Source of the DNA: Prauserella aidingensis
Lineage (GTDB): Bacteria; Actinomycetota; Actinomycetes; Mycobacteriales; Pseudonocardiaceae
DNA length: 64,000 nucleotides
Assembly: GCF_024171865.1 (NCBI RefSeq)
Contig: NZ_JAMTCN010000004.1
Location: 248,001 to 312,000, forward strand
Direction: 5' to 3'
In this document: piece by piece, positions 6,264 through 35,943 of the stretch
Numbering within the stretch: position 1 is the stretch's first letter
Layout of the letters: every line of letters starts with the position of its first letter
Program-made: the position numbers and the translations under genes
Notes under the pieces: model-generated
What the model was told of the DNA's origin: nothing
Seen by the model: only the letters and a program-made list of their open reading frames with translations
The model's database searches: none

Positions 6264-6276
6264 GGAGGCCGATCCG

Positions 6277-7674: not shown

Positions 7675-7685
7675 GAGGAGCGGGT

Positions 7686-21074: not shown

Positions 21075-21722
21075 TCACACCGTCGAATCGGGGAAGGCGA
21101 TCACGGACAGGAACCGGATCGGGAAGCTGATCAGCTCCACGGGGCCGTGTGGCGCCTCACCATCGATCTGCAGCGAGTCGCCGGCGGTCATCCGGTAGAC
21201 CGACCGGCCGTGTCCGTAGGCCATCTCGCCGTCCAGCAGGTAGATGAACTCGGTCCCGGGGTGTTCGAAGAGCGGGTGGACCTCGCTCTGGGCGTCGAGC
21301 GTGACCAGCAGGCACTCCAGTCGTTTGTGCTCACCCCGGAGCATGCCCAGAAGCTCGTACTCGTGACCGACCTGCGTGCCGTTGCGGACGATGCGGGTCC
21401 CCTGTCCCGCGGGAACGAAGGAGGCCGGCCGCTCGGTCTCCGCGCCCCGGAACAGGGACGTCACCGGGACGTCGAACGTGGCGGCCAGCCGCGCCAGGGT
21501 CGCCAGGCTGCACGAGGTCTGCGCGTTCTCGATCTTCGAGAGCATCGCCTTGGAGATGCCGATCTGATCCGCCATGAAACCCACGGACACGCCGTGCTGG
21601 GCACGCAGTCGCCGGACATTGCGCGCGATCGCCTCCTCCAGCGCGACCTCTTCCACGGTCTCGCTCTCGTGGCGGTTCCGTGCCGTACCCGAGACGTTGC
21701 GGAGCAGGTTCTCGTCGGACAT
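21075..21722 (-). CDS. XRE-type regulator with C-terminal cupin sensor domain
   Basis: A 215-residue regulator. The helix-turn-helix spans about residues 28-90 (ARNVRRLRAQHGVSVGFMAD, QIGISKAMLSKIENAQ). A C-terminal double-stranded beta-helix cupin spans about 115-210 (EHPGTEFIYLLDGEMAYGHG, MTAGDSLQIDGEAPHGP). Proteins of this build usually sense a small metabolite and control adjacent catabolic genes, often amine or amino-acid degradation. It is the last gene of the operon that begins at 28496, with 25 bp separating it from the M20 gene. It is therefore the best local candidate for binding the split palindromes upstream of the two methylated-amine operons. That binding is inference. Confidence 0.9.
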   Translation of the reverse strand: MSDENLLRNVSGTARNRHESETVEEVALEEAIARNVRRLRAQHGVSVGFMADQIGISKAMLSKIENAQTSCSLATLARLAATFDVPVTSLFRGAETERPASFVPAGQGTRIVRNGTQVGHEYELLGMLRGEHKRLECLLVTLDAQSEVHPLFEHPGTEFIYLLDGEMAYGHGRSVYRMTAGDSLQIDGEAPHGPVELISFPIRFLSVIAFPDSTV

Positions 21723-21747
21723 GCGTCCACCATAACGGCGCACCGTT

Positions 21748-23013
21748 TCACACGAGTGGACAGCCGCCCGTCGTGTCGGTGTCCGGGGCGGTCGGCACCG
21801 TGGGAGGGTCGGCCGCCAACAGTTCCAGACCATCGGCGAGCGCCGCGGCTCCGGCCTCGGCATCGGCGTCCTCGCAGAGCTCCTCCGGAGCGTGCGAGAC
21901 CCCGGTCGGGTTGCGGGTGAACAGCATCGCGGTCGGCACTCGGCCGGCAAGCACACCCGCGTCGTGACCGGCACCGGTCGGCAGCTGCGGTGCGTCGCCC
22001 AGGTGTGCCGACAGCCGGTCGCGCAGCGCAGCGTCGAAGTCGACGGTGCCGCTGAGCGATTCCTCGGTGAGCGTCGCCGTGCAGCCCTCGTCGGTGGCCA
22101 GCTCGGCCGCTTCCTCGCCGATCCGCGCGACCAACGATGCGGTGACGGTGTCGTCGGGATGCCGGACATCCAGCCAGACGTCCACCGTGGATGCGATAAC
22201 GTTGGTGCCACCGGGCACGGGTTGCAGCCGCCCGACGGTCGCGCGGGCGCCCGGCTCGGCGCGCGCCAGATCGCGCACAGCCGCGATCAGCCGCCCGGCG
22301 GCCACCATCGGGTCACGGCGATCGGCCATCAAGGTCGTACCGGCGTGGTTGCCCTCGCCCTGTATCGAGATCCGCCAGCGCCCGTGCCCCAGGATCGACG
22401 TCGCCACACCGACCGGACGGCCGAGGTCGACGAGCCCACGTCCCTGTTCGACGTGCAGCTCCACGAACGCCTTCATCCGCGCGATCGCGTCGGGGTCGGG
22501 CCCCATGCGTTCCGGGTCGAGTCCGCTGCGGGCGGCGACCTCGGCGTACGTGAGGCCGTCGGTGTCCTTCAGCGCCAGGGCCCGTTCCGGGGTGATCGCA
22601 CCGGTCGCCAGGCGGGATCCGAGGCACGCGACGCCGAACCGCGAGCCCTCCTCCTCGCCGAACACGGCGATGGCACGCGTCCCGCCGACGCCGCGTGCGG
22701 CCAGCTGATCGAAGGCCACGAGCGCCGAGGCGATGCCGAGCGGCCCGTCGTAGGCGCCGCCACCGGGCACCGAGTCCAGATGCGACCCGGTGACGGCCGC
22801 CCCGTCCCGGCTTCCGGAGGGCGCGTGCCACGCCCAGATGGTGCCGTTGTGGTCGGTACGGACATCGAGTCCACGCCGGGCCGCGTGGCCGCGGAACCAC
22901 TCCCGCAGTGTGTGTTCGGCATCGGAGTGGACGGGACGGGAGTACCCGCCGCGCGCGGGATCGCGGCCGATGTCGGCGATCTCGTCCAGCAGCCCTGCGA
23001 CGGTGTCGGTCAT
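21748..23013 (-). CDS. M20-family Zn-dependent amidohydrolase (allantoate / N-carbamoyl-L-amino acid hydrolase type)
   Basis: A 421-residue metal-dependent hydrolase of the peptidase M20/M40 group that includes allantoate amidohydrolase, L-N-carbamoylase and bacterial beta-ureidopropionase. Binuclear metal ligands are visible: His78 (TGSHLDSVP), Asp89 (AYDGPLG), the Glu cluster at 120-122 (FGEEEGSRFG), His187 (ELHVEQG) and a final His in VSHAPEE. The dimerisation lid segment GHGRWRISIQGEGNHAGTT is conserved. The start overlaps the stop of the flavoprotein gene (ATGA at 23010-23013). Its place in a methylamine-type operon is unusual: it may process an N-carbamoyl or amide precursor such as N-carbamoylsarcosine, or clear a side product. 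Substrate unknown. Confidence 0.87.
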   Translation of the reverse strand: MTDTVAGLLDEIADIGRDPARGGYSRPVHSDAEHTLREWFRGHAARRGLDVRTDHNGTIWAWHAPSGSRDGAAVTGSHLDSVPGGGAYDGPLGIASALVAFDQLAARGVGGTRAIAVFGEEEGSRFGVACLGSRLATGAITPERALALKDTDGLTYAEVAARSGLDPERMGPDPDAIARMKAFVELHVEQGRGLVDLGRPVGVATSILGHGRWRISIQGEGNHAGTTLMADRRDPMVAAGRLIAAVRDLARAEPGARATVGRLQPVPGGTNVIASTVDVWLDVRHPDDTVTASLVARIGEEAAELATDEGCTATLTEESLSGTVDFDAALRDRLSAHLGDAPQLPTGAGHDAGVLAGRVPTAMLFTRNPTGVSHAPEELCEDADAEAGAAALADGLELLAADPPTVPTAPDTDTTGGCPLV

Positions 23014-24185
23014 CGCATCTCCCCCGCGCCGACGTAGGGATGCGGGCTGCGCAGGAGCGCGCCGGTCTCGAAGCGCTCCAACCGGAAGTCGCTCGCCGGG
23101 ATGTCCGGGTCGGTGCTGTCGCCCTCGAGCACCAGGTCCGCGACGAGGTCGCCGACGGCGGGACTGATCTTGAAGCCGTGGCCGGCGAAACCGGCGCACA
23201 GCGTCAGCCCGGCGACGTCGCCGACGGGCGCGATCACCGGATTCCAGTCCGGAGGTACGTCGTAGACACCGGCGTAGGTGTGCGTCACCGACGGCTCCGG
23301 GAATCCCGGGAACCGGTGCATGACTTTCTCGGCGTAGGCCAGGACGCTGCTCTCCGCGGCGACATTGGAGTAGTTGTCCGGGTCGACGAACTTCTTCTCC
23401 GCGTCGTCGTGGTCGCTGTTGCCGACCAGGAACTGCCCGGCCCCCTCGACACGGCAGTACTGCAGACTCACGAGGTCGGACACCACCGGCAGGTCGGGCA
23501 GCAGCTCGCCGGCGTCGACGACGAGCAACTCGGACCGGTAGGCGTCGATCGGGAAGTGGATTCCCAGGTCCGCCACCAGTTTCGCCGACCACCAACCCGC
23601 CGCGACGATCACCTGATCGGCTTCCACGGTCTCCCCTGACGCCAGTTCGACACCGGTGACCCTCCCGCCCGCGGTGACGATCCGCGCGACCGGTGTCTGC
23701 TGCCGCACCTGCGCGCCCTTCGCACGCGCCAGCTGTCCGAAGTGGAGCGCCAGCTGGGTGGCGTCGGCGAATCCGCCGCGGGGTTCGTACGCGGCCGCTG
23801 CGACGTCGTCGACGTGCATCATCGGCCACATCGCGGCCAGCGTGTCGACGTCGATCATCTCCGCCTCGACGCCGAGTCCCTGGTGGGTGGCGATGTTGGC
23901 GCGCAGCGGCTCCGCGTTCTCCTCGCCCACGAGGACCGTGTATCCGCACTGCCGGAACCCCACAGCGTCACCGAATTCCTCGAACACGGGAAGACTGCGC
24001 CACGCCATCGCGGCAAGGGACGGCACGCCGTAGTGGGCACGCACGATGCCGCTGGACTTGCCCGTGCCACCCTCGGCCAGCGTGCCGCGTTCTAGCACCA
24101 GCACCTCGCCGGCACCGCGCTCGGTCAGCGCACGGGCGATCGAGAGCCCGATCAACCCGCCGCCGACGACGATCGTCCTGCTCAT
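23010..24185 (-). CDS. FAD-dependent oxidoreductase, DAO family (candidate N-methylglutamate or sarcosine oxidase/dehydrogenase)
   Basis: A 391-residue flavoprotein related to glycine oxidase and the sarcosine oxidase beta subunit. It has the N-terminal dinucleotide fold TIVVGGGLIGLSIARALTER (residues 4-23), SSGIVRAHYG, a central DATQLALHF segment and the C-terminal FAGHGFKISPAVGDLV typical of the family. The ATG at 24185 is preferred to a GTG two codons upstream because AAGGAG is then five bases away. The gene follows the MgsC-type gene by 28 bp and overlaps the M20 gene. In the N-methylglutamate pathway the final oxidation of N-methylglutamate to glutamate plus formaldehyde is normally done by a four-subunit complex; this single chain is the only candidate here. 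Alternative: a sarcosine-type oxidase. Confidence 0.85.
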   Translation of the reverse strand: MSRTIVVGGGLIGLSIARALTERGAGEVLVLERGTLAEGGTGKSSGIVRAHYGVPSLAAMAWRSLPVFEEFGDAVGFRQCGYTVLVGEENAEPLRANIATHQGLGVEAEMIDVDTLAAMWPMMHVDDVAAAAYEPRGGFADATQLALHFGQLARAKGAQVRQQTPVARIVTAGGRVTGVELASGETVEADQVIVAAGWWSAKLVADLGIHFPIDAYRSELLVVDAGELLPDLPVVSDLVSLQYCRVEGAGQFLVGNSDHDDAEKKFVDPDNYSNVAAESSVLAYAEKVMHRFPGFPEPSVTHTYAGVYDVPPDWNPVIAPVGDVAGLTLCAGFAGHGFKISPAVGDLVADLVLEGDSTDPDIPASDFRLERFETGALLRSPHPYVGAGEMR

Positions 24186-24213
24186 GCTCACTCCTTCGCC
24201 CCGCCGGACGGTC

Positions 24214-25536
24214 TCAGCTTCCGGGAATCCACGACGTACCGGCGAGTGGAACCCGCGCCATGGCGGCGGATTCGATCGTCAGCGCGACGAGGTCCTCCGG
24301 CTCCAGGTGCCGTAGGTGTGCCTTGCCGCAGGCCCGCGCGATGGTCTGCGCCTCCATCGTCAGCACCCGCAGGTAGTTGGCGAGTCGCGCGCCACCGGCG
24401 ACCGGGTCGAACCGAGCGGCCAGTTCCGGGTCCTGCGTCGTGATGCCCGCGGGGTCGCAACCGTCCTGGAAGTCGTCGTAACACCCTGCGGCGGATCCGA
24501 TCTTCTCGTACTCGGCCGCGTAGGCCGGGTCGTTGTCGCCGAGTGCGATCAGCGCGGCGGTGCCGATGGCGACGGCGTCCGCGCCCAGTGCCATCACCTT
24601 GGCGACATCGGCCCCGGTGCGGATGCCGCCGGAGGCGATCAGCTGCACACCCTTCTCGCCCGCGCGGTGCACGCCGAGTTCCTGCAGGGCCTGCGCGGCC
24701 TGGGGAATCGCGGCGAGTGTCGGGATGCCGACGTGCTCGATGAACACCTCCTGCGTCGCCGCGGTGCCGCCCTGCATGCCGTCGACGACGACCACGTCGG
24801 CGCCCGCGTGCACGGCGAGTTTGGTGTCGTAGTAGGTCCGGCTCGCGCCGACCTTCACGTAGATCGGCTTCTCGTGGTCGGTGATCTCCCGCAACTCGTT
24901 GATCTTGATCGTGAGGTCGTCGGGGCCGGTCCAGTCCGGGTGTCGCGACGCGCTGCGCTGGTCGATCCCTTCGGGCAGTGTGCGCATGCCGGCCACGCGC
25001 TCGGAGATCTTCTGGCCCAGCAGCATCCCGCCGCCGCCCGGCTTCGCACCCTGACCGAGAACGACCTCGACGGCGTCGGCCTTGCGCAGGTCGTCGGGAT
25101 TCATGCCGTAGCGGCTCGGCAGGTACTGGTAGACGAGATGCTTCGACTGGCCCCGTTCCTCGGGTGTCATGCCGCCGTCGCCGGTGGTGGTCGAGGTCCC
25201 GACCTCCGACGCACCGCGTCCCAGCGCCTCCTTGGCGGCGCCGGACAGCGCGCCGAACGACATGCCCGCGATGGTCACCGGCACGTCCAGGTGCAGCGGG
25301 TACCGGGCACCTCGCGTGCCCAACGCGACGTCGGTGTCGCAGCGTTCCCGGTAGCCCTCGAGCGGATAGCGGGACATCGACGCTCCGAGGAACAGCAGGT
25401 CGTCGAAGTGCGGCACCGAGCGCTTGGCGCCCCAGCCACGGATGTCGTAGACGCCCGTGTCGGCGGCGCGCCGGATCTCCGCGATCGCGGCGCGGTCGAA
25501 GGTGGCCGACTCGCGCAGTCCCCACGTGTTGGTCAC
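24214..25536 (-). CDS. mgsC: FMN-binding glutamate synthase-like protein (N-methylglutamate synthase subunit C / GlxD type)
   Basis: A 440-residue protein equivalent to the central FMN domain of glutamate synthase. The motifs are PVTIAGMSFGALSG, STTTGDGGMTPEERGQ, GQGAKPGGGGMLLG, KINELREITDHEKPIYVKVG, GGIRTGADVAKVMALGADAV and GITTQDPELAARF. The canonical three-cysteine 3Fe-4S motif of GltB is not complete: only two cysteines eight residues apart (CYDDFQDGC) precede DPAGIT. Together with the two upstream genes it forms the three-subunit synthase that moves the methylamine nitrogen from gamma-glutamylmethylamide onto glutamate, giving N-methylglutamate. The GTG start has GAGGAGG upstream, 11 bp after the subunit B stop. 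Family sure; methylamine specificity inferred from neighbours. Confidence 0.87.
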   Translation of the reverse strand: MTNTWGLRESATFDRAAIAEIRRAADTGVYDIRGWGAKRSVPHFDDLLFLGASMSRYPLEGYRERCDTDVALGTRGARYPLHLDVPVTIAGMSFGALSGAAKEALGRGASEVGTSTTTGDGGMTPEERGQSKHLVYQYLPSRYGMNPDDLRKADAVEVVLGQGAKPGGGGMLLGQKISERVAGMRTLPEGIDQRSASRHPDWTGPDDLTIKINELREITDHEKPIYVKVGASRTYYDTKLAVHAGADVVVVDGMQGGTAATQEVFIEHVGIPTLAAIPQAAQALQELGVHRAGEKGVQLIASGGIRTGADVAKVMALGADAVAIGTAALIALGDNDPAYAAEYEKIGSAAGCYDDFQDGCDPAGITTQDPELAARFDPVAGGARLANYLRVLTMEAQTIARACGKAHLRHLEPEDLVALTIESAAMARVPLAGTSWIPGS

Positions 25537-25547
25537 GGCGATCCTCC

Positions 25548-26231
25548 TCAGTAGGTGTTGTGGGCCCGGAAGTGGTAGAGCCTGCGCGCCGAGCCGTAGC
25601 GCGTGTACTCGGCCGGGTCGTCCTCGTAGCCTGCGGCCTTCAGCAGGCCGGCGAGCTCCTCGACGTGCTCGGGGCGCATCTCTTTGGCCACGCAGTCGGC
25701 GCCGAGCGCGCCGACGTCGCCGCGGACGTAGAGGCGGGCCTCGTAGATCGAGTCGCCCAGTCCGTCGCCGGCGTTGCCGCGTACGACCAGTCGGCCCGCC
25801 TGTGCCATGAACGCGGAGTTGTGGCCGACGTCGCCGCCCACCACGATGTCGACGCCCTTCATCGAGATGCCGCAGCGGGCGGCGGCGTCGCCGTGCACCA
25901 CCAGCAGACCGCCGTGGGCCGTGGCCGCCGCGCTCTGTGAGGCGTTGCCCGCCACCACGACGGTTCCGCTCATCATGTTCTCCGCGACACCGGTCCCCGC
26001 GTTGCCACTGATGACGATCTCCGCCTGTTGGTTCATACCCGCGGCGTAGTAGCCGACGTGCCCGTCGACCGTGATCTTCACCGGCGCGTTCACCCCGACC
26101 GCGATGTTGTGCGTGCCGCTCGGGCCGGTGACGACGTACTCGCCGCTGACACCGTCGGCGTGCAGCGCGGCGTTGACGTCCCGCAGCGGCGTGGTGGTCA
26201 GGTCGAACGTCGTGGCAGTCAGCGTGTCCAC
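25548..26231 (-). CDS. mgsB: GXGXG-domain protein (N-methylglutamate synthase subunit B / GlxC type)
   Basis: A 227-residue right-handed beta-helix protein equivalent to the C-terminal GXGXG domain of the glutamate synthase large subunit. Repeats of the type GNAGTGVAENMMSGTVVVAG, GDAAARCGISMKGVDIVVGG and GNAGDGLGDSIYEARLYVRG are evenly spaced. In the split synthase this subunit is structural, holding amidotransferase and FMN subunits. The start is the GTG at 26231, inside the 3' end of the amidotransferase gene (13-nt overlap), with a strong GGAGGT nine bases upstream. Longer starts would have no ribosome site. Confidence 0.88.
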   Translation of the reverse strand: MDTLTATTFDLTTTPLRDVNAALHADGVSGEYVVTGPSGTHNIAVGVNAPVKITVDGHVGYYAAGMNQQAEIVISGNAGTGVAENMMSGTVVVAGNASQSAAATAHGGLLVVHGDAAARCGISMKGVDIVVGGDVGHNSAFMAQAGRLVVRGNAGDGLGDSIYEARLYVRGDVGALGADCVAKEMRPEHVEELAGLLKAAGYEDDPAEYTRYGSARRLYHFRAHNTY

Positions 26232-27115
26232 GCGTAGATCACCTCCGGTTCGGGTTCCCAGATGCGGGCGGCTTCGACGCCGGGCAGGTGCGCGAGGGCG
26301 CGGTACTCGCTCGCCATCGCGACCCAGTCGGCGGTCTCGGCGATGACCGCCGGTTTGCAGGCGATGGCGTCGCGCACCACCGCGAAGGAGTCGTGATGGG
26401 ACACCAGCAGCGTGTAGAAGCCGTCGAACGTGGCGCACAGTTCTTTGAGCGCCGTCTCGACGTCACGGCCCTCCGCCAGTCGCTGCGCGACGAACCGCGC
26501 GCCGACCTCGGTGTCGTTGAGGCTGTCGAACTCCACGCCGGCCGCGACGAGCTCGCGGCGGATGGTGGCGTGGTTGGCGAACGAGCCGTTGTGCACGAGG
26601 CACTGGTCCGGGCCGACGGCGTACGGATGGCAACCGGCGGCGTCGACCGCGGATTCGGTCGCCATCCGGGTGTGCCCGACGCCCTGCCAGCCCTGTGCGC
26701 CCGGCAGTCCCCAGCTGTCGGCGAGGGTGTGCGGGTGGCCGACGCCCTTGAGCACGGCCAGGTCGGTACCGAAGCCGGCGACCAGCGCGTCCGGGTGCGC
26801 GGCGCGCGCGGCGGCGAGCAGCTGCTCACTGCCGGCGGGCGACGTCAGCAGCAACGTCTCGGCCAGCACGCGGCCCTGCACCGGTGCTCCCAGGGCCGCG
26901 GACACAGCGGCCGCCGCGTCGTCGGCCCCGGCGTCGACGCCGAGCAGCGACACCGCGCCGTGCCCGCCGGGGGTCCACACCGGGTCGCCGTAGACGGCGA
27001 CGCCCGCCGAGTCCGCCCCGCGGTCCTCCATTTCACACAGCATCCCGGTGAGCAGCCGGCCCAGTTCGGGGTGCAGTTCCGGGGTCCGCAGATGCAGTCC
27101 CACGATTCCGCACAT
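26219..27115 (-). CDS. mgsA: Class II glutamine amidotransferase (N-methylglutamate synthase subunit A / GlxB type)
   Basis: A 298-residue Ntn-type amidotransferase with the nucleophile Cys2 directly after the initiator (MCGIVGLHLR), so Met removal should activate it. Other family marks are EDRGADSAGVAVYGD, GHTRMATESAVDAAGCHP and CLVHNGSFANHATIRREL. In the methylamine pathway it is the subunit that accepts gamma-glutamylmethylamide rather than glutamine. It has an excellent Shine-Dalgarno (AAAGGAGG) and follows the synthetase gene by 28 bp. Without the gmaS-like gene beside it, ordinary glutamate synthase function would be the alternative. Confidence 0.9.
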   Translation of the reverse strand: MCGIVGLHLRTPELHPELGRLLTGMLCEMEDRGADSAGVAVYGDPVWTPGGHGAVSLLGVDAGADDAAAAVSAALGAPVQGRVLAETLLLTSPAGSEQLLAAARAAHPDALVAGFGTDLAVLKGVGHPHTLADSWGLPGAQGWQGVGHTRMATESAVDAAGCHPYAVGPDQCLVHNGSFANHATIRRELVAAGVEFDSLNDTEVGARFVAQRLAEGRDVETALKELCATFDGFYTLLVSHHDSFAVVRDAIACKPAVIAETADWVAMASEYRALAHLPGVEAARIWEPEPEVIYAWTR

Positions 27116-27143
27116 GTGTCGCCTCCTTTCGACGTCGCCGACG

Positions 27144-28496: not shown

Positions 28497-28508
28497 CGGG
28501 CGGCTCCT

Positions 28509-28556
28509 ACATGTCTACTTCAAGGAATCATCATCTAATGACAGTAGACATGTCCA
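28509..28556 (-). promoter_or_regulatory. Promoter and split-palindrome operator of the gmaS/mgs operon
   Basis: ACATGTCTACT (28509-28519) and its exact inverse AGTAGACATGT (28543-28553) are 11-bp arms separated by 23 nt. On the minus strand a possible -35 TGGACA (28556-28551) overlaps the far arm, and GATGAT (28532-28527) lies 18 nt on as -10. The near arm sits between the start point and the ribosome site. The same arms with the same 23-nt spacer recur upstream of the N-demethylase operon. A repressor binding both arms would block this promoter. Confidence 0.78.
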
Positions 28557-28613
28557 GTATTGCGACCAGATGACATCGCCGTCAGCGTCGCGTTGCGCGA
28601 GCCGTCCGAGACA

Positions 28614-28652
28614 CAGGTGAGGCCCGGCCACCGCGTGACCGGGCCTCACCTG
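28614..28652 (-). terminator. 14-bp hairpin terminator after the ammonium transporter gene
   Basis: CAGGTGAGGCCCGG (28614-28627) and its exact inverse (28639-28652) lie 17 bp past the amt stop on the minus strand, isolating it from the gmaS promoter. Confidence 0.8.
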
Positions 28653-28668
28653 CTGGGCTGGACGAGGG

Positions 28669-30090
28669 TCAGACACGCACCTCGTCGGGGTCGTCCTCGG
28701 GCGACGCGTCCCCCTCCGGTGCCGTGCCCTGAGTTGCCGTGCCCTCCGGCGCCGTGTCCGTTGGGGGCGACGGGGCGTCCACCGGCTCCGGTGCGGGCGT
28801 GCTCACCGCTCCGCCGGTGATCGCGCCGTTGCCACCCGGCAGCGCACCACGCCCGGCCGCCGGCATCAGGTCGTAGGCGGACTCGGCATGGACGGCCACG
28901 TCGAGCCCTTCGGCCTCGGTCTCCTCGTCCACCCGGATGCCGATGAGCTTGTCGAGTCCCTTCGCCACGAGGTACGTCATGACGAACGAGTAGCCGCACG
29001 TCGCAACGATGCCGACCAGCTCACGCCAGACGATGTCCGGATCGCCGCCGAACAGGACCCCGGTGACCCCGCCGGGCGCCGCACCCGAGGCGAACAGGAT
29101 CACGCAGAGCGTGCCGAAGATGCCGCCGAGTCCGTGAACGGCGAAGGCGTCGAGACTCTCGTCGATGCCGAGCTTGTTCTTCAGCCCGATCAGCAGGCAC
29201 ACGCCCGCACCGGCGACGAGACCGAGCAGCAGCGCACCGATCGGGCTCATGACGTCCGCGGCCGGGGTGATGCCGACCAGTCCCGCGATCAGGCCGGTCA
29301 CGATGCCCAGTCCGGTGATCCGCTTCTCGCGAATCTGCTCGACGAGCGCGAAGCCGATCATGCCGGTGCACGCCGAGAGCAACGTCGTCAGGACGACGTA
29401 CTGCGCCAGGAAATCGGCCGCCCCGGCCGTGCCGCCGTTGAAACCGAACCAGCCGAAGAACAGGATGCCGCCACCGATGACGACGAGCGGCAGACTGTGT
29501 GGTCGCTCCCCGGAACGCCGCTTGCCGAGGGCGACGGCGAGCGCGAGCGCGGCAACGCCGGAATTCATGTGGACGGCCGTGCCACCGGCGTAGTCGTGCA
29601 CGCCGAGCTTGCTCATCCAGCCCTCGTCGATACCGAAGATCCAGTGTGCGACCGGGAAGTACACCACCGTCAACCACACCACGGAGAACGCGATCCATCC
29701 GCTGAACTTCATCCGGCCCGCCGCACCGGAGGACACGATCGCGATCGTGATGGCTGCGAACAGGATGAAGAACGCTGCGTTGAAGGCACCCTCGGCTCCA
29801 CCCGTACCTCCGTCGGCCTGGAAGTCGCCGAGTCCGAGGAAGTCACTGGGATCACCGATCAAGCCCCAGCCGCCGACGGACGGCCCGGACACCAGTCCGT
29901 AGCCGTACGCCACGTACAGCACGGCGGTGACGGCGAGCGTGCTCAGCACCATCACCATGATGTTGAGGGCGTTCTTCGCCCCCAGCATGCCGCCGTAGAA
30001 CAGCGCGAGTCCGGGGAACATCAACGACACCAGCCCGAAGGCTGCGAGCAGCCAGGCCAGGTCGCCGTTCGCGGCGAGGACAGGTTCCAT
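28669..30090 (-). CDS. amt: Ammonium/methylammonium transporter (Amt family)
   Basis: A 473-residue Amt/MEP/Rh channel with about 11 membrane segments. The twin pore histidines are in AGGTAVHMNSG and in AFAVHGLGGIFG. Other signatures are FFGWFGFNGGTAG and MFPGLALFYGGM at the N-terminus. The last about 75 residues form a Pro/Gly/Glu-rich cytoplasmic tail, longer than usual. It lies between the two methylated-amine operons, 182 bp after the demethylase operon end and on the same strand. Methylammonium is a known Amt substrate, so uptake of methylamine or recapture of ammonia both fit. No glnB/glnD genes follow, unlike the usual actinomycete amtB-glnK-glnD arrangement, so this is probably a second, specialised Amt. 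Confidence 0.94.
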   Translation of the reverse strand: MEPVLAANGDLAWLLAAFGLVSLMFPGLALFYGGMLGAKNALNIMVMVLSTLAVTAVLYVAYGYGLVSGPSVGGWGLIGDPSDFLGLGDFQADGGTGGAEGAFNAAFFILFAAITIAIVSSGAAGRMKFSGWIAFSVVWLTVVYFPVAHWIFGIDEGWMSKLGVHDYAGGTAVHMNSGVAALALAVALGKRRSGERPHSLPLVVIGGGILFFGWFGFNGGTAGAADFLAQYVVLTTLLSACTGMIGFALVEQIREKRITGLGIVTGLIAGLVGITPAADVMSPIGALLLGLVAGAGVCLLIGLKNKLGIDESLDAFAVHGLGGIFGTLCVILFASGAAPGGVTGVLFGGDPDIVWRELVGIVATCGYSFVMTYLVAKGLDKLIGIRVDEETEAEGLDVAVHAESAYDLMPAAGRGALPGGNGAITGGAVSTPAPEPVDAPSPPTDTAPEGTATQGTAPEGDASPEDDPDEVRV

Positions 30091-30229
30091 GAGAGTTCTC
30101 CTCGAGGTGACAGAGTTGTGGCGGCGGTCGTGGTGACGGCAGCGAGGCCGGCGCGACGTCGGGCACCTGCCGGTTGGCCGCAGTTTCCTTTGTGGACACT
30201 TCGTCCGTGTTGCGGTTCCGCGCTCCGGC

Positions 30230-30251
30230 GTGACGGGCAGGTAACGGTTAC
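30230..30251. promoter_or_regulatory. GlnR-like half-sites upstream of amt
   Basis: Read on the minus strand, GTAAC (30251-30247) overlaps the outer end of GTTAC-N6-GTCAC (30245-30230), a spacing that fits the actinobacterial GlnR box (gTnAC-n6-GaAAC), although the second half departs from consensus. It lies about 140-160 bp upstream of the amt start. The 30091-30272 gap holds no gene. Candidate nitrogen control only. Confidence 0.38.
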
Positions 30252-30272
30252 GGGCTTCGTGTTGCGGCCGGG

Positions 30273-31391
30273 TCAGCCCGCGCGGAGATAGGCGACGACG
30301 TCTCCGGAGAAGTCGAGGAATCCCTTATAGGCGGCGATGTCCTCGGGCAGTTCCTCGACGATGTCGGCCAGCTGCGCGCACCACTCCGGCACGGCCTTCA
30401 GTTCCTCGAGCGAGGCCATGAACGTGCGAATGTTGAACGTCACCGCGCCGGTCGTCGGCAGCCGCACGAAGTGTTCGAGCTCGATGCGCAGCTGGACGTT
30501 CGGGATCGCGTCTCCCGCGGCCTGCCGCAACGCCATGTCCCTGCCCCACGAGGGCAGCGATTCGAGGGCGATGTCGTACTTGCGGGTGGGCGAGGCCGCG
30601 AGGTTCCAGTTCAGCCTGCGGTAGACCCGGTCGGCGGGCAGTCGCCGCAGGAACTGCTCGGCCCGCGCGACGATGCCCTCGCGGCGCATCCGCGGCACCG
30701 GGCCGTGGATCTCGTACATGTCCATCCCGACGTCGAACGACACAGACCACGCCGCCGCGAAACAGACCGCGCCGGCGTCGAAGTACAGCCGGCCGTCGCG
30801 CTCGGTGACGAGCAGCATGTCGTCGGGGACCTCGCGGCTGAGGAACTCCAACGGTCCGTGCGGGATCGAGTCCCACTCGCCGAGGACGAACCGCTGGTCG
30901 GTGCCGAGCAGGTCGTTACGCCAGTGGAACGCATCGGGGTTGCCGTCGACGCCTTCGTCGAGGTGCATCACCTCCGGGTGGGTGATGGCGAGGTCACGCA
31001 GGTAGTAGAGCAACAGGTCCCAGCACGCCGGTTCCATACCGCGGCGGATCTTGGTGCGGTGCGGATCGGCGTCGTGGGTGATGCGCTTCTCGGTCATGAT
31101 CGTCAGGTAGTCGGCCCCGCCGAGATCGACCAGGTGACGTCCCCATTCGCCGGCGCGAGTGGGACGCGGTACGCGGGCCGGGTCGACGTTCACCGAGTAG
31201 CGGAAGGCCCCGAGGTCCTCCGGGAACGGCCAGGGCAACGGGCCGACGTGGTCGACCGGCTGCGCCCGAAAGGCCTCGACCTCCGGTGTGCGCAGCGGGC
31301 GGATGCCCACGGCGGCCATCTCCTCGTCGGTGTAGCGGGGCGACCGCGCGGCGGCGATCGCAGTGTCGGTCACGGCGTCTGCTCGGCTCAC
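30273..31391 (-). CDS. Heme-dependent oxidative N-demethylase alpha subunit (DUF3445), copy 1
   Basis: About 372 residues of the DUF3445 family, whose characterised member is the heme-binding PAS-like alpha subunit of dimethylamine demethylase (HODM/dimethylamine monooxygenase). Family blocks shared with copy 2 are RYSVNVDPARVPRP near the N-terminus, SFDVGMDMYEIHGPVPR, YRRLNWNL, LRIELEHFVRLPTTGAV and NIRTFMASLEEL. It would bind heme b and oxidise an N-methyl group to formaldehyde using O2 and electrons from the adjacent reductase. GTG at 31391 is chosen because it forms a GTGA overlap with the reductase stop and sits six bases after GAGGT; ATG one codon upstream is possible. Last gene of its operon. 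The exact amine is inferred. Confidence 0.85.
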   Translation of the reverse strand: MSRADAVTDTAIAAARSPRYTDEEMAAVGIRPLRTPEVEAFRAQPVDHVGPLPWPFPEDLGAFRYSVNVDPARVPRPTRAGEWGRHLVDLGGADYLTIMTEKRITHDADPHRTKIRRGMEPACWDLLLYYLRDLAITHPEVMHLDEGVDGNPDAFHWRNDLLGTDQRFVLGEWDSIPHGPLEFLSREVPDDMLLVTERDGRLYFDAGAVCFAAAWSVSFDVGMDMYEIHGPVPRMRREGIVARAEQFLRRLPADRVYRRLNWNLAASPTRKYDIALESLPSWGRDMALRQAAGDAIPNVQLRIELEHFVRLPTTGAVTFNIRTFMASLEELKAVPEWCAQLADIVEELPEDIAAYKGFLDFSGDVVAYLRAG

Positions 31392-32410
31392 CATTGCACC
31401 TCGATCTCGCTTCGGTCGACACCGCGCGAGACGCAGCACAGCATGCTGTCCCCGGCGGTTTTCTCCTCGTCGGACAACGCCAGGTCGCGATGCACGACGA
31501 CGCCGTCGGCGGCGCGCACCGGGATGCGGCACTCGCCGCACACGCCCTGGCGGCACAGGTTCGGCACGGGCAGTCCGTGCTCGAGCAGCCGGGTCAGCAG
31601 CGACACCCCGGCGGGAACGTCGATGCGCTCGCCGCTGGACGCGACAACGGCGGTGAACGGCGATCCCGGGTCCTGTTCGGGCGCGGTGAAGCGCTCCAGG
31701 TGGACCCGCGCGTCCGGCCACCCGGAGCCGGCGGCGACCTCGAGGTACGTCTCGAGCATCGGACCGGGACCGCAGGCGTAGGCGTGCGTGCCGAGCGGCT
31801 GGTCCGCGAACCGTTCGCGCAGGACACGCACCGTGTCGTCGACGGTCGTGGCCTCGTGCAGCCCGAACCCGGCGCGCTCGGCGAGTTCACGCAGGTCGTC
31901 GAGATGGGCGGCCGCGCCCGGCCGGTAGGAGTAGACGACGTCGGCACGCCGGCCCGCACGGGCGAGCGCCCGCGCGTGGGAGAGCACCGGCGTGATGCCG
32001 ATGCCGCCGGCGACGAGTAGCGCTCCGTGCTGGTCGAGCACGGGCGGGAACATCGACCGCGGGCCCTCCACCTCGAGGAGGTCACCTGCGGCGGCCCGGT
32101 CGTGGAGCCAGTCGGAACCGCCGCCCTCGCCGCGCCGCAGCACGGAGATTCCGTAGGAGCGCGGATTCATGCCGTCGTCGACGAGCGAGTAGGCGTTGCG
32201 GTGCTCGCCCGCGGTGACGATCAGGTGGCTGCCCGGTTGGTAGGCGGTCAGCGGCTGCCCGTCGACGGGGACGAACCGGAAGTGCGTGATCGCGTCGGTC
32301 AGCGGCCGCACCTCGTGCACGCGCACTGTGCGACGTCCGGTCTCGTAGGCCGGGTGCAGGTGGAATCGGTGACCGGCGAGTTCGCCGGCGATCGGATCGG
32401 TCAGTGTCAC
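31388..32410 (-). CDS. Flavin/2Fe-2S reductase subunit (PDR/VanB type) of N-demethylase, copy 1
   Basis: A 340-residue phthalate dioxygenase reductase-like protein. The FMN-binding domain has HRNAYSLVDD (R-x-Y-S-x near 71-75), the NAD(P)H domain has LLVAGGIGITPVLSHARALA and YACGPGPMLETYL, and the C-terminal plant-type ferredoxin domain has CRQGVCGEC with the fourth ligand in SMLCCVSR. It passes electrons from NAD(P)H through FMN and the 2Fe-2S cluster to the heme subunit encoded next. It starts with GTG behind GGGAGGT and overlaps the alpha-subunit gene by four bases. Gene order and coupling match the dimethylamine monooxygenase arrangement. Confidence 0.88.
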   Translation of the reverse strand: MTLTDPIAGELAGHRFHLHPAYETGRRTVRVHEVRPLTDAITHFRFVPVDGQPLTAYQPGSHLIVTAGEHRNAYSLVDDGMNPRSYGISVLRRGEGGGSDWLHDRAAAGDLLEVEGPRSMFPPVLDQHGALLVAGGIGITPVLSHARALARAGRRADVVYSYRPGAAAHLDDLRELAERAGFGLHEATTVDDTVRVLRERFADQPLGTHAYACGPGPMLETYLEVAAGSGWPDARVHLERFTAPEQDPGSPFTAVVASSGERIDVPAGVSLLTRLLEHGLPVPNLCRQGVCGECRIPVRAADGVVVHRDLALSDEEKTAGDSMLCCVSRGVDRSEIEVQW

Positions 32411-32428
32411 CGTGGACCTCCCGGGGGG

Positions 32429-32959
32429 TCAGAGGGTCATCGCGTGGGCATCGGAGGCGAGGAAGCAACCCAGCGACCACGCCAGGTGCGGGTGGATCTC
32501 GAGCAGCCGGCCGCAGCCCGGGCAGGTCACCTCGTCACCCGGTCCGCCTGCCACGCGGTGCGGCGCGCGGCAGTGCGCGCAGTGGATCGGCGCGTCGCCG
32601 GTGTCGACGACGAAAGCGGCGATCTCGCCGGGCAACGCGCCGGCGTCGTGGGCGGCCGTGCTCGCCGTCAGCACGTCGTACTGACCGCCGACGAGCAGGA
32701 GCCTGCAGCCCGTCCGTGCCGCGGCGAGCACCTCGCCGAAGGTCGCGCGGTCGGTGTCGGCGGACATGGAGTCGAGGACGGCGAGCACGGTCGGCGCCGC
32801 CGCCTCCGCCTCCTCGACCCACGCCCGCGCGACCTCGCGGGTACGCGCGTGGCCGCCGATCGCGACGACCACGTACGACGTCCCGGCCGGGTCGACGGGC
32901 GGTGGCTCGGCCGGCCATTCCGGGAGCGAGTAGAACGGCGGCGGGATGTCGGTGTTCAT
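32429..32959 (-). CDS. dmmA: DmmA-like small subunit with C-terminal zinc-ribbon, copy 1
   Basis: A 176-residue protein resembling the DmmA subunit of dimethylamine monooxygenase. The N-terminal part has a Rossmann-like pattern (SYVVVAIGGHARTREVARAW). The C-terminal 50 residues contain C-x2-C (CAHC) and C-x2-C-G (CPGCGRLLEIHPHLAWSLGC), probably binding zinc or iron. Its paralogue at 35027-35560 keeps the four-cysteine pattern and the G-x-FL ending. The ATG overlaps the stop of alpha copy 2 (ATGA at 32956-32959) and the reductase begins 18 bp downstream. Role in the complex (electron transfer, assembly or product handling) cannot be told from sequence. Confidence 0.72.
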   Translation of the reverse strand: MNTDIPPPFYSLPEWPAEPPPVDPAGTSYVVVAIGGHARTREVARAWVEEAEAAAPTVLAVLDSMSADTDRATFGEVLAAARTGCRLLLVGGQYDVLTASTAAHDAGALPGEIAAFVVDTGDAPIHCAHCRAPHRVAGGPGDEVTCPGCGRLLEIHPHLAWSLGCFLASDAHAMTL

Positions 32960-34065
32960 GTCGGCCCCGCAGTCCCGAGCCATTCCGCGGCCCGCTCGCG
33001 GTAGGTGATCAGGCCCTTGTAGTCGGCCATGTCGTCGGGCAGTTCGGCGAGTACGGACGCCGTCCGCTCGCGCCACGGCTCGACCGTCGCGATCTGTTCC
33101 AGCGGCAGCATGTGGGTGCGGATCAGGAACATCACCGCGCCGGAGTCGGGCAGTCTGATCAGGTGCTGCACCTCGACACGCAGGTGCACGAGCGCGCCGA
33201 ACAGCTCGTCGTCGACGGCCGACACCATCGCGCGCTCCGGTCCCCAGCCCGGATAGGTCTCGGTGGAGACGTCGAGGCGCCGGCCCACGGTGAGCGTCCA
33301 GTTGGTGCGCCGATACGGCTGGTGCGGCTGCAGTCGCATCAGGAAATCGTGCGCGCGGGTGATGATGCGTTCGCTGTGGATGCGCGGCACCGGCCCGTGG
33401 ATTTCCAGGAAGCTCATGCCGAGGTCGAAACCGAAACTCCAGTCGGCGGCGAACGTGACCACGCCGGCGTCGGCGTAGAGCTGCTCGCGTTGGTCGAGCA
33501 GGACGATGTCCTCCTGCACCTGCGAGCCGATGTACGCCAGCGGATCGCTTGCCGGCAGCGATGCGTCGTCGCCGTAGCGGAAATCGACGTCGTCCCCGAG
33601 CACCGCGTTGCGCCACCGGTAGCCCTCGCCGAGCCGGTCCAGCGTGAACCACTCCGGGTACGCGGCCGACAGCTCCCGCATCAGGGTGAGCATCGCGTCC
33701 CACGCCGCGGGCCGCATGTGCGGCGACACGGCCTGGCGACTGGGGTCGCGACGCAGGATTGCGGCACGCTCGGCGAGTTCGGTCCGGTACTCGACGTCGA
33801 CGTCGACGACCGCCTCGCCCCACTGTCCCTGCGCGGTCGGCACGGGCACGCCCGCGGGCTGGACATTGGTCGAGTACCGGTAGGTGTCGTCGGTGAACGG
33901 AAAGGGGAACCGGGCGGTCAACTCGTCGAGCCGGTCGGCCTGCGTCCGCGGCACCCCGGACATCTCCGCGGGACTCGTCGCGTATTCCGGTCTCGTGGAG
34001 CCCGGTGTGCCGGTGCTCGGTGTGCCGGGGCTCGGGGATGTTGCGGAACTCGGCGCGATACTCAC
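32956..34065 (-). CDS. Heme-dependent oxidative N-demethylase alpha subunit (DUF3445), copy 2
   Basis: About 369 residues, clearly paralogous to copy 1 but diverged. Shared blocks are RYSTNVQPAGVPVPTAQGQW, SFGFDLGMSFLEIHGPVPR, YRRTNWTL, LRVEVQHLIRLPDSGAV and LIRTHMLPLEQI. An extra Ser/Pro/Thr-rich N-terminal tail of about 40 residues is not seen in copy 1. The start is GTG at 34065 with GGAGGT six bases upstream and a GTGA overlap with its reductase gene. The two alpha subunits differ around the predicted heme pocket neighbourhood, so they may act on different N-methyl substrates or successive methyl groups. That is inference. Confidence 0.84.
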   Translation of the reverse strand: MSIAPSSATSPSPGTPSTGTPGSTRPEYATSPAEMSGVPRTQADRLDELTARFPFPFTDDTYRYSTNVQPAGVPVPTAQGQWGEAVVDVDVEYRTELAERAAILRRDPSRQAVSPHMRPAAWDAMLTLMRELSAAYPEWFTLDRLGEGYRWRNAVLGDDVDFRYGDDASLPASDPLAYIGSQVQEDIVLLDQREQLYADAGVVTFAADWSFGFDLGMSFLEIHGPVPRIHSERIITRAHDFLMRLQPHQPYRRTNWTLTVGRRLDVSTETYPGWGPERAMVSAVDDELFGALVHLRVEVQHLIRLPDSGAVMFLIRTHMLPLEQIATVEPWRERTASVLAELPDDMADYKGLITYRERAAEWLGTAGPT

Positions 34066-35030
34066 AGGGACACCTCCAGGGTGGGTCCGTCGGCACGCGA
34101 GACACACGCCATCACGGCGTCTCCCGCGGCCTTCTCGTCGTCGCTGAGGTACAGATCGCGATGCAGCGGTGTGCCGCCGCCGACCGTCAGCCGGCATTCG
34201 CCGCACACGCCCTGCCGGCACATGTTGGGGACGTCGAGGCCGGTCCGTTCGAGCGTTTCGAGCAGGCTGACCCCGCTGGGGACGGTGAGCTCCCGCCTGT
34301 TCCCGGCGTGGGTCACGGTGACGGTGAACGGTTCGCCGGGGGCGAGCGCGTCGGCGCCGAACCGCTCGGAGTGCAGCCGGGAGTCCGGCCAGCCCGCCGC
34401 GGCCGCGGCGGCGAGGGTCGCGTCCATCATCGGGCCGGGCCCGCAGACGTAGAGGTGTGTCCCGATCGGCTGCTCCGCCAGGACCGTGTCGAGTCGGCGC
34501 GTGAACGCCTCCCGTTCGGTACAGGTCTCCAGTCCCGGCCCGGGAAGGCCGCCTGCCAGGTCCTCGATGTCGTCGAGATGCGCTCCGCGACCGGGGCGGA
34601 AGGTGTAGAGCACCTGCACCTCACGGCCCCACCTGCGGGCCGCACGCAGGTGGGACAGGATCGGCGTCACGCCGATGCCGCCCGCGATCAGCAGGTGCCG
34701 GCGCGCGCGGGCGACGGGTGGGAATGCGCTGCGCGGCAGGAGCGCGCCGACCTTGGTGCCCGGGGTGAGCTCGCGGTGGATCCACTCCGAACCGCCGTTG
34801 CCGCCCGCGCCGGCGGGTACGTGCAGGACCGAGATCCGGTACGCCGCCGGGTCGACGCCGTCGCCGGTGAGGCTGTAGGCGTTGCGCCGGCCGCAGCCGA
34901 GTTCGAGCACGACGTGACTGCCGGGGACGTAGCCGGGCAACGGTGCCCCGTCAGCGGCTTCCAGCGTCACCGACCGGATGCCGGGAACCTCCTCGGCGAT
35001 GTCGGTGATGACGAGTTCCAACGCGGTCAT
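34062..35030 (-). CDS. Flavin/2Fe-2S reductase subunit (PDR/VanB type) of N-demethylase, copy 2
   Basis: A 322-residue paralogue of the reductase at 31388-32410. It has the flavin motif RRNAYSLTGDG, the nucleotide domain LLIAGGIGVTPILSHLRAAR with YVCGPGPMMDATL, and the C-terminal 2Fe-2S domain CRQGVCGECRLTV with the last cysteine in AVMACVSRA. It is a little shorter at the N-terminus than copy 1. The ATG at 35030 follows GGAGGTGTC and overlaps the DmmA-like gene stop by four bases. It should reduce the alpha subunit encoded immediately downstream. Confidence 0.88.
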   Translation of the reverse strand: MTALELVITDIAEEVPGIRSVTLEAADGAPLPGYVPGSHVVLELGCGRRNAYSLTGDGVDPAAYRISVLHVPAGAGGNGGSEWIHRELTPGTKVGALLPRSAFPPVARARRHLLIAGGIGVTPILSHLRAARRWGREVQVLYTFRPGRGAHLDDIEDLAGGLPGPGLETCTEREAFTRRLDTVLAEQPIGTHLYVCGPGPMMDATLAAAAAAGWPDSRLHSERFGADALAPGEPFTVTVTHAGNRRELTVPSGVSLLETLERTGLDVPNMCRQGVCGECRLTVGGGTPLHRDLYLSDDEKAAGDAVMACVSRADGPTLEVSL

Positions 35031-35560
35031 GACACCTCCGTTCCGGGAATGCGTTCGGCGTCGTGCTGGAAGCCGAGGAACCGACCGGTGTTGCGCGAAA
35101 CGTGGTAGTAGACGAGCAACTCCCGGCCGCACCCGCGGCAGGCCACGACGTCGTCCACAGCAGCCTCGACGTTCGTGACGGCCGAACAGTGGCTGCAGTA
35201 CAGCGAAATCGGTCCGTGCCCGGTCGGGCGCAGCTCCAGTTCGTCGTCCTCCACACCGGCCGTCACCGCGGCCGCCCGCAGCTGCAGGCAGTCCCCGACC
35301 GGAGCGGCGATCCGAATGCGGACACCGACGTGCGGGGCCGCGAGCGCCGCGTCGAGTCCGACATCGGCGGCGGTATCGGCGAGGACGACCTCGGCCGGGA
35401 CGTCCGCAGCGTCCTCCCACGCGGCGACCTGTGCGCGGCCCGCTGTTCCGACACCGACCAGCAGGTGTCGGTTCCCGCCCTCGCGCGGCGACGCCGCTGC
35501 GGTGCGGCTGCGCCTGCCGCGTGCCCAGGCGGGGACGCTGGTGTGCTCCAGACTGCTCAT
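35027..35560 (-). CDS. dmmA: DmmA-like small subunit with C-terminal zinc-ribbon, copy 2
   Basis: A 177-residue paralogue of 32429-32959. The N-terminal Rossmann-like stretch is HLLVGVGTAGRAQVAAWEDA. The C-terminal metal-binding part has CSHC and CRGCGRELLVYYHVSRNTG, followed by RFLGFQHD. The overall four-cysteine spacing and the G-RFLG/GCFLA ending agree with copy 1, but the histidine after the second pair is placed as YYHVS. It follows the cupin gene by 11 bp and is coupled to the reductase gene. Function within the complex is not established from sequence. Confidence 0.7.
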   Translation of the reverse strand: MSSLEHTSVPAWARGRRSRTAAASPREGGNRHLLVGVGTAGRAQVAAWEDAADVPAEVVLADTAADVGLDAALAAPHVGVRIRIAAPVGDCLQLRAAAVTAGVEDDELELRPTGHGPISLYCSHCSAVTNVEAAVDDVVACRGCGRELLVYYHVSRNTGRFLGFQHDAERIPGTEVS

Positions 35561-35571
35561 GGCAGACCCGA

Positions 35572-35943
35572 TCAGAGCAACGACGCGTCGCGGTAGCCGA
35601 CGTAGAACGCGAGCGCGTAGCTGGGAGTACTGAACTCGATCACCGACCCCTTGGGGAAGAAGATCGCGTCCTTGGGGCCCGCCACCAGCTTCTGACCCGT
35701 GTCCTTGTCGACCAACAAGAACTCGCCCTCGAGAACGACCTTCATCTCGTCGTACTCGTAGGTGTAGATCAACGGCTCGTCGGCGCTCTTGAGCTCGAAG
35801 TACCCGGCGCACATCGGACTGCCGTCGGGGTTCTCGTACACGTCGCCGATGAAGCCCTCGGTGCCAGGGAACTCCTCGGTCGACATTCGCGGGAGACCCT
35901 TCCAGGCCTCGGTGCTGACACGGAAAGGAACCTGTTCGGCCAC
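35572..35943 (-). CDS. Small cupin protein (EutQ-like fold), first gene of the N-demethylase operon
   Basis: A 123-residue single-domain cupin with the two usual motifs: TYEYDEMKVVLEGEFLLVDK (about 60-79) and GPKDAIFFPKGSVIEF (about 90-105). The classic metal-binding HxH of motif 1 is replaced by Tyr-Asp-Glu, so metal binding is uncertain. The protein resembles cupins found beside ethanolamine and amine catabolic genes. It starts with GTG directly downstream of the split-palindrome promoter. It might bind an aldehyde or amine intermediate, or act as an accessory factor of the demethylase; no activity can be assigned. Confidence 0.75.
   Translation of the reverse strand: MAEQVPFRVSTEAWKGLPRMSTEEFPGTEGFIGDVYENPDGSPMCAGYFELKSADEPLIYTYEYDEMKVVLEGEFLLVDKDTGQKLVAGPKDAIFFPKGSVIEFSTPSYALAFYVGYRDASLL

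Follow-up and report, generated by a model that had tools for sequence, protein, structure and literature searches.

A predicted methylated-amine pathway in Prauserella aidingensis that may end in N-formylglutamate and formate

We analyzed a 64,000-nucleotide stretch of the Prauserella aidingensis genome (assembly GCF_024171865.1, contig NZ_JAMTCN010000004.1, positions 248,001 to 312,000; the window), in which a block of ~15 kb holds 15 genes, all on the minus strand (21075 to 35943). In the order of transcription, they encode an EutQ-like cupin, two tandem sets of HODM-type dimethylamine monooxygenase subunits (DmmA1-B1-C1 and DmmA2-B2-C2), an ammonium transporter family protein (Amt), a gamma-glutamylmethylamide synthetase-type enzyme (GmaS), three N-methylglutamate synthase-type subunits (MgsA-B-C), a single-subunit DAO flavoprotein, an M20 amidohydrolase, and an XRE-cupin regulator. 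The gene classes named in an original prediction for this DNA (two HODM sets, synthetase, Mgs, DAO, Amt, cupin, and XRE-cupin) were all found where that prediction had placed them and on one strand, and the M20 gene had been missed. Methylated amines are widespread nitrogen compounds, and we judge it somewhat better than an even prospect that the block encodes a nitrogen-scavenging methylated-amine pathway whose DAO and M20 enzymes would complete it via N-formylglutamate. We propose more tentatively, at a little under even, that the N-methylglutamate pathway has a second form, with a DAO replacing the four-subunit dehydrogenase MgdABCD, a deformylase of the histidine pathway (HutG in Burkholderiales, M20 in actinomycetes) following, and no free formaldehyde arising from methylamine; M20 would then also be the missing HutG of actinomycete hut operons.

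In the proposed route, Amt would import the amine, and Dmm set 2 might supply set 1 with its substrate, made for instance from a tertiary methylamine. By orthology, set 1 would convert dimethylamine to methylamine and formaldehyde, GmaS would join methylamine to glutamate as gamma-glutamylmethylamide, and MgsABC would turn this amide and 2-oxoglutarate into N-methylglutamate and glutamate. The DAO, instead of MgdABCD, would oxidize the N-methyl group of N-methylglutamate on to N-formylglutamate, and the translationally coupled M20 enzyme, judging from its context, would split the latter into glutamate and formate. Formaldehyde would thus be released once, not twice. The original prediction had described an apparently complete route from dimethylamine to glutamate with two releases of formaldehyde. 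Its course from dimethylamine to N-methylglutamate agrees with orthology (the placement of DmmC1, the GmaS site, MgsABC, and co-conservation), but the ending differs: the block lacks MgdABCD, the enzyme known for the last step, and the deformylases found near the DAO (HutG in Burkholderiales and M20 in the window) suggest that the second demethylation gives N-formylglutamate and formate in place of a second formaldehyde.

The DAO gene (23010 to 24191; PF01266, 3e-61) encodes a candidate N-methylglutamate dehydrogenase or oxidase. SoxD is a mark of MgdABCD, and a search of the P. aidingensis genome for SoxD, the one Mgd subunit searched for, gave no match, while the control matched. With no MgdABCD in the block and no SoxD found in the genome, the single DAO would have to take its place, and the distribution of the two enzymes is consistent with such a replacement. 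SoxD was absent from seven of eight genomes with a DAO-type cluster, P. aidingensis included, and was detected in the Mgd carriers used as controls (G337 and G538). Relatives of GmaS at 1e-90 occur in 22 of 396 genomes of the phylum. All six genomes with a GmaS at least 69% identical have the DAO adjoining MgsC; none of the other 16 has this DAO in the stretch read (best other DAO matches, 27 to 29% identity), and six of those 16 have Sox/Mgd genes there (in L111, a 3-kb contig, just SoxB). Among alpha- and gammaproteobacterial plasmid loci with GmaS/MgsABC, six were read: Mgd genes of the sarcosine oxidase type occur together with purU in four (L085, L086, L088, and L089), and L084 and L087 show no Mgd or DAO nearby. 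The DAO scores below the cutoffs of the SoxB, monomeric sarcosine oxidase, and N-methyltryptophan oxidase models, and the nearest folds to its AlphaFold2 (AF2) model (mean predicted local distance difference test [pLDDT] score, 87.0) are the beta subunits of proline dehydrogenase and sarcosine oxidase. Arg51 and Lys341, invariant in 24 relatives, align with the Arg and Lys of sarcosine oxidase beta; proline dehydrogenase has Met at the position of Lys341. In monomeric sarcosine oxidase, such an Arg/Lys pair holds the substrate carboxylate.

The start of the M20 gene (21748 to 23013) overlaps the DAO stop by 4 bases. The protein scores 576 bits with NF006770 (cutoff, 372), named "allantoate amidohydrolase," and 266.5 bits with TIGR01879 (cutoff, 204). 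It aligns over nearly its full length with solved carbamoylases, its nearest solved relatives (3n5f, 5.3e-58), and an excerpt of PMC7431475 describes one L-carbamoylase for which N-formyl amino acids were better substrates than their N-carbamoyl counterparts. The M20 gene followed the DAO gene in all six loci whose DAO is at least 70% identical to that of the window (near group: the window, L032, L034 of Nocardioides ferulae, L039, G505, and G735 [L101 and L127]).

A paralog of M20, 61% identical, lies in an operon of the same genome in the order HutH-HutU-M20-HutF-HutI (L124:6577-14000, contig C10). The four Hut enzymes each exceed their cutoffs, and the M20 copy exceeds that of NF006770 (609 bits). 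This operon serves histidine degradation and, unlike the window, has no DAO, GmaS, or Dmm genes. HutF makes N-formylglutamate, so the M20 enzyme in hut operons should be a deformylase, and no HutG (PF05013) was found in the P. aidingensis genome by a search that matched its control in Caulobacter. The hut-operon enzyme, despite its name, is therefore probably an N-formylglutamate deformylase, and the window M20 is a candidate N-formyl-L-glutamate deformylase, a functional analogue of HutG from another family. A search of 296 genomes from the class at 1e-100 found relatives of M20 in 113. Among the 30 best-scoring loci, the window included, 22 lie beside hut genes and three beside this DAO (the window, G735, and G505); the others comprise two with only an XRE-cupin gene, two with a distant DAO (27 to 28% identity), and one with neither. 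In an unrooted tree of 37 rows, all of at least 300 residues (L032, whose M20 is cut by the end of its stretch, is thus absent), the DAO-linked copies fell in a group of 17 rows (one pair identical) with support of 100/99, which also contains the hut copies L124, L132, and L135. As a side observation, the different DAO flavoprotein beside M20 in L133 and L134 (27 to 28% identical to that of the window) suggests a further pathway of like design.

A deformylase of a different family accompanies the DAO in Burkholderiales. A HutG-type N-formylglutamate deformylase gene was present within 3 kb of the DAO gene in 11 of 11 plasmid records whose DAO is at least 68% identical to the Cupriavidus DAO, as shown by match positions in nine and by the annotation in Paraburkholderia phymatum and P. 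phenoliruptrix. Six of the records have GmaS next to the DAO; MgsABC was seen in five of these, and the sixth, NZ_CP013104.1, was placed by match positions alone. No hutH, hutU, hutI, or hutF was listed in six annotated stretches, for which the plasmid gene tables are incomplete. These glnT-glxABC-DAO-hutG clusters (Cupriavidus metallidurans, Aquabacterium olei, and Paraburkholderia and Burkholderia plasmids) share the GmaS/MgsABC and DAO families with the window and likewise have a deformylase adjoining the DAO. They differ in that the deformylase is HutG and not M20 and in that electron transfer flavoprotein (ETF) genes stand by the DAO in seven of eight loci read; their DAO is 35 to 37% identical to that of the window. 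A similar HutG adjoins HutF in Caballeronia and HutI/HutF in a Comamonadaceae plasmid, where it serves the histidine pathway. A Haladaptatus relative of the DAO (33% identity) had no deformylase in its annotated stretch; it is not one of the 11 records and was set aside. If the proposed ending is correct, it would represent a formaldehyde-sparing demethylation of N-methylglutamate, give a function to the M20 family now named allantoate amidohydrolase, and mean that a histidine-pathway enzyme was recruited twice, separately, to the same step. Our searches of the open literature found no paper joining N-formylglutamate with N-methylglutamate and none joining N-methylglutamate dehydrogenase with "FAD-dependent oxidoreductase."

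The block is a conserved module in Nocardioides, Gordonia, and, in part, Mycobacterium. A scan with DmmC2 as the query gave 25 named loci in other species of these genera, and the run from the EutQ-like cupin through Dmm sets 1 and 2 recurs in 24 of the 25. GmaS lies inside the fetched stretch in 22 of them and the DAO in 19, some stretches ending early, while no gene outside the run from EutQ to XRE-cupin accompanies the block in more than seven. Recurrence in other species with flanks that are not conserved argues that the gene run is not due to chance. The original prediction placed the pathway in an actinomycete; the module is not peculiar to one. The exceptional locus, L055 on a plasmid of "Candidatus Mycobacterium methanotrophicum," has Dmm set 2 with a DmmC1-type gene ~24 kb away and GmaS-MgsABC-DAO at another place on the same plasmid. 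The plasmid of this organism (L073 and L074; NZ_CP097321.1) shows the pathway in dispersed pieces amid transposase genes. Within the genus Prauserella, the distribution of the block is patchy, since the five same-genus genomes listed in the order-wide search had no HODM alpha subunit. Across the order, PF11927 was found in 30 of 298 genomes, with two copies in four of the 30; the two copies in the window are the only HODM alpha subunits in the P. aidingensis genome. The DmmC proteins of another genome of the order, G081, are identical to those of the Gordonia locus L041.

The dmm run starts with the EutQ-like cupin gene (35572 to 35943; PF06249, 3.4e-15; nearest solved structure, EutQ 2pyt, 9.1e-12). 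Set 1 consists of the small subunit DmmA1 (35027 to 35560; PF22289, 6e-12), the reductase subunit DmmB1 with its 2Fe-2S domain (34062 to 35030; PF22290, 4e-22; Fer2, 1e-12), and the heme alpha subunit DmmC1 (32956 to 34065; PF11927, 5.1e-68; 5lte, 6e-87). Set 2 consists of DmmA2 (32429 to 32959; PF22289, 7.7e-6 and 26.2 bits, slightly below the curated cutoff of 27.4, with position and relatives in support), DmmB2 (31388 to 32410; PF22290, 5.6e-12; Fer2, 1.4e-9), and the paralogous heme alpha subunit DmmC2 (30273 to 31391; PF11927, 3.7e-52; 5lte, 4.4e-57). Both alpha subunits belong to the heme PAS family PF11927 and can be aligned with the solved HODM 5lte; the AF2 model of DmmC2 (pLDDT, 88.1) had two PDB matches at an E value of ≤0.001, both HODM (5lte and 5lth; TM-score, 0.77 to 0.87). 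The order DmmA/B/C and the heme alpha subunit are those of the DmmABC/DmmDABC systems of Ruegeria pomeroyi, Methylocella silvestris, and Paracoccus aminophilus, whose function is known from Ruegeria and Paracoccus (excerpts of PMC5520151 and PMC4543880). The window differs from these in its second, diverged set in tandem, in the EutQ-like cupin gene ahead, and in having no DmmD in the block.

Phylogenetic analysis separated the two alpha subunits. In an unrooted DmmC tree of 75 rows (72 different; all of at least 281 residues, the proteobacterial rows taken from five plasmid loci), DmmC1 clustered with the five proteobacterial rows in a group of 36 (support, 95/83), apart from the 30 DmmC2 rows, which formed a group of their own (support, 100/100) behind a branch of 0.97 changes per column. 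The placement of three divergent rows on long branches is unsure. A comparison of 28 DmmC2 rows with 35 DmmC1 and proteobacterial rows gave 10 type-specific positions, all conserved to at least 97% within the respective set of rows, including F219/M230, Q182/E192, Q192/E202, Q300/E311, and H116/G123 (numbering of the script). W209/220, H223/234, R252/263, R253/264, N255/266, and W256/267 are shared by both types. This comparison leaves out the DmmC2 rows of L059 and L073, the divergent rows L065, L066, and L070, and the DmmC1 row of L059; six further rows were shown in it but not used.

Set 1 thus fits a dimethylamine monooxygenase that forms methylamine, and set 2 appears as its diverged paralog. 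DmmC2 was always accompanied by DmmC1, in 28 of 28 distinct carriers (the window, L032 to L056, L058, and L059), drawn mostly from the DmmC2 query; L057 (G081) was dropped as a duplicate of L041, and the DmmC1 of L055 lies elsewhere on its plasmid. That set 2 was never seen alone would fit, without proving, an upstream enzyme feeding set 1; tentatively, the most likely place of set 2 is one step before set 1, whose substrate it would make, perhaps from a tertiary methylamine. The same co-occurrence would also be expected if set 2 were instead redundant with set 1 or formed a heteromer with it, as might be suggested too by the many residues invariant in both types, including the histidine of the HGPVP stretch. 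We give this alternative a substantial but minority chance; it sits less well with the reductase and small subunit that set 2 has of its own, with the long branch between the DmmC types, and with the "Candidatus Mycobacterium methanotrophicum" plasmid, on which both sets are kept although they are ~24 kb apart.

No folate-binding DmmD was found in the block, and four GcvT-type matches in the genome all lie outside it. A separate locus of the same genome (L096:8072-16292, contig C2), unlinked to the window, encodes a GcvT-like protein, an MTHFR-like protein, formate-tetrahydrofolate ligase, a DMGDH-like protein, and ETF. A Tdm-type trimethylamine N-oxide demethylase was considered and rejected: the sole DUF1989 match is in a frame of 206 residues, too short for Tdm. 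A 2015 study of Gram-positive methylamine users proposed the N-methylglutamate route in Mycobacterium, with mgdA-D homologs, and in the parts excerpted reported no additional dimethylamine monooxygenase candidate (PMC5023230); a search of the open literature by title found no paper on Gordonia using dimethylamine. The Dmm sets described here, common to Gordonia and Nocardioides species, are candidates for the dimethylamine monooxygenases of Gram-positive bacteria.

Several observations weigh against the proposed ending, whether against the role of the DAO or against a formyl product. In Gordonia, L042 and L048 lack a DAO next to MgsC, which speaks against an obligate role of the DAO, and G081, with a DAO-type cluster, has a SoxD away from that cluster. 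The 11 Burkholderiales records come from a single order and are partly near-copies, and in three of them (L076, L078, and L081; two others were left unread) the stretch shows DAO and HutG but lacks GmaS; the DAO substrate in these three may be another N-methyl amino acid. In Comamonas antarctica, a similar HutG has no DAO or hut gene as a neighbor. In the far DAO group (49 to 52% identical to that of the window), just 3 of 23 loci (L049, L052, and L053) have M20 next to the DAO; L069, also among the 23, runs off its stretch and cannot be judged. Neither M20 (E value, 1e-40) nor HutG was found in the far-group genomes G007, G034, G081, and G187. A mycothiol-dependent formaldehyde dehydrogenase gene lies beside the DAO gene in the far group (L058; G187) and in L083, a plasmid of Streptomyces sp. 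NBC_01320 with a DAO of 26% identity, which points to free formaldehyde in L058 and L083. The P. aidingensis genome encodes such an enzyme as well (MscR; 665 bits, cutoff 512.9), unlinked to the block. Oxidation of an N-methyl to an N-formyl group by an FAD enzyme would be a four-electron step, and we know of no direct precedent for it.

An alternative is the classical ending, in which the DAO would yield glutamate and free formaldehyde, the latter would be cleared by the mycothiol-dependent dehydrogenase, and M20 would be a passenger or salvage other N-acyl amino acids. MscR in P. aidingensis, its place beside the DAO in L058 and L083, and the four DAO-bearing genomes with neither deformylase at the thresholds used would all agree with it. 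Such an ending leaves unexplained why one DAO family has, in two phyla, two unrelated candidate N-formylglutamate deformylases as neighbors and why the DAO and M20 genes overlap, and for the window we regard it as rather unlikely, if far from negligible. Since the far-group relatives mostly lack M20, we claim the ending in N-formylglutamate for the near DAO group and the Burkholderiales clusters only; for the far group, free formaldehyde is the likelier ending. Two arrangements seen in these comparisons may be recorded in their own right. In L083:13983-20595 and L058:13536-20000, GmaS-MgsABC-DAO is followed by S-(hydroxymethyl)mycothiol dehydrogenase, with no deformylase, and in L076, L078, and L081 the DAO-ETF-HutG clusters lie beside ABC transporter genes (with putA too in L078).

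The synthetase gene (27144 to 28496; TIGR03105, 592 bits, cutoff 469.6; 7cql, 8.7e-110) encodes an enzyme whose nearest solved relative is RhGmaS. Residues were assigned by hand in the RhGmaS numbering of PMC7948447, as given in an excerpt; the numbering of the PDB chain is offset by 20. Lys30′, Tyr147, Asp177, Glu179, Glu186, Asn188, Arg312, Ala48′, and Trp300 are all kept; according to the same excerpt, glutamine synthetase has Asp where GmaS has Ala48′ and Glu where GmaS has Trp300. The catalytic residues Arg312, Asp177, and Glu186 are present, and the ammonia-binding Asp50′ and the Glu of the Glu-flap are absent, as expected for GmaS. Six of the seven methylamine-pocket residues of RhGmaS are kept, with Gln175 replaced by Ala, as in every actinobacterial GmaS row with a readable motif. 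The active site thus appears to be of the GmaS type with one pocket change.

Adjoining gmaS are the genes for MgsA, the class II amidotransferase subunit (26219 to 27115; PF13522, 3.8e-14; Cys2 present), MgsB, the GXGXG subunit (25548 to 26231; PF01493, 1.7e-8), and MgsC, the FMN glutamate-synthase-like subunit (24214 to 25536; PF01645, 1.8e-84). Amt (28669 to 30090; PF00909, 2.1e-111; TIGR00836, 388 bits, cutoff 343) is possibly the amine importer. GmaS and MgsABC are common to the window and the gmaS-mgsABC-mgdABCD clusters of Aminobacter and Paracoccus (excerpts of PMC11446756 and PMC4543880), and Amt and an XRE-type regulator recur in several plasmid N-methylglutamate loci; the window differs in its single-subunit DAO and M20 and in having no MgdABCD in the block. 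The substitution at Gln175, the acceptance of ethylamine and other amines by RhGmaS (excerpt of PMC7948447), and the 10 type-specific positions of Dmm set 2 might suggest a different amine as the substrate of the block and, from the GmaS-like enzyme, a different gamma-glutamylamide. We consider this improbable, as the remaining catalytic and pocket residues of GmaS are kept and MgsABC, Amt, and the placement of DmmC1 are all consistent with methylamine. Less probable still is that M20, because it exceeds the cutoff of NF006770, is an allantoate amidohydrolase linking purine nitrogen with amine nitrogen in this block, given that the same model scores the hut-operon copy even at 609 bits, that hut genes flank 22 of the 30 best-scoring M20 loci, and that the AllC model falls far below its cutoff (194.7 versus 597.75).

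Overlaps of 4 bases (DmmA1/B1, B1/C1, C1/A2, B2/C2, and DAO/M20), together with gaps of ~180 bases before Amt and ~170 bases before gmaS, make three transcription units likely: dmm, amt, and gmaS through XRE-cupin. The XRE-cupin regulator (21075 to 21722, the start at 21722 or 21863 being uncertain; HTH_3, 1.4e-9; Cupin_2, 8.5e-10) probably controls these operons. In the 32 stretches scanned, the exact palindrome GTCTAC-N5-GTAGAC had 15 copies, every one of which precedes gmaS. Allowing two mismatches or fewer raised the count to 43, of which 25 precede gmaS, against a mean of 15.6 in base-shuffled sequences; the window has one degenerate copy (28533 to 28549, minus strand, two mismatches) ~54 bases upstream of gmaS. 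A second palindrome, GGAAACA-N7-TGTTTCC, had 24 matches with up to three mismatches, 15 of them upstream of EutQ (shuffles, 10.2) and none in the window. Both are operator candidates only. A scan for sigma-70 promoters and terminators gave no more than chance, and Rfam at gathering scores gave no match in the window.

The genome assembly comprises 5.65 Mb in 80 contigs and is 99.95% complete. A pathway role was considered and rejected for the neighbors outside the block, namely, an amidohydrolase (36160), a beta-lactamase fold protein (37074), a CMD protein (37945), a hydroxyisobutyrate-type dehydrogenase (38358), and a frame with no Pfam match (19966), none of which is a recurrent neighbor of the block among the 25 named loci. 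Among the 4-kb steps of the window, G+C content was lowest at 4001 to 8000 (0.669, compared with 0.689 to 0.726 in the other steps).

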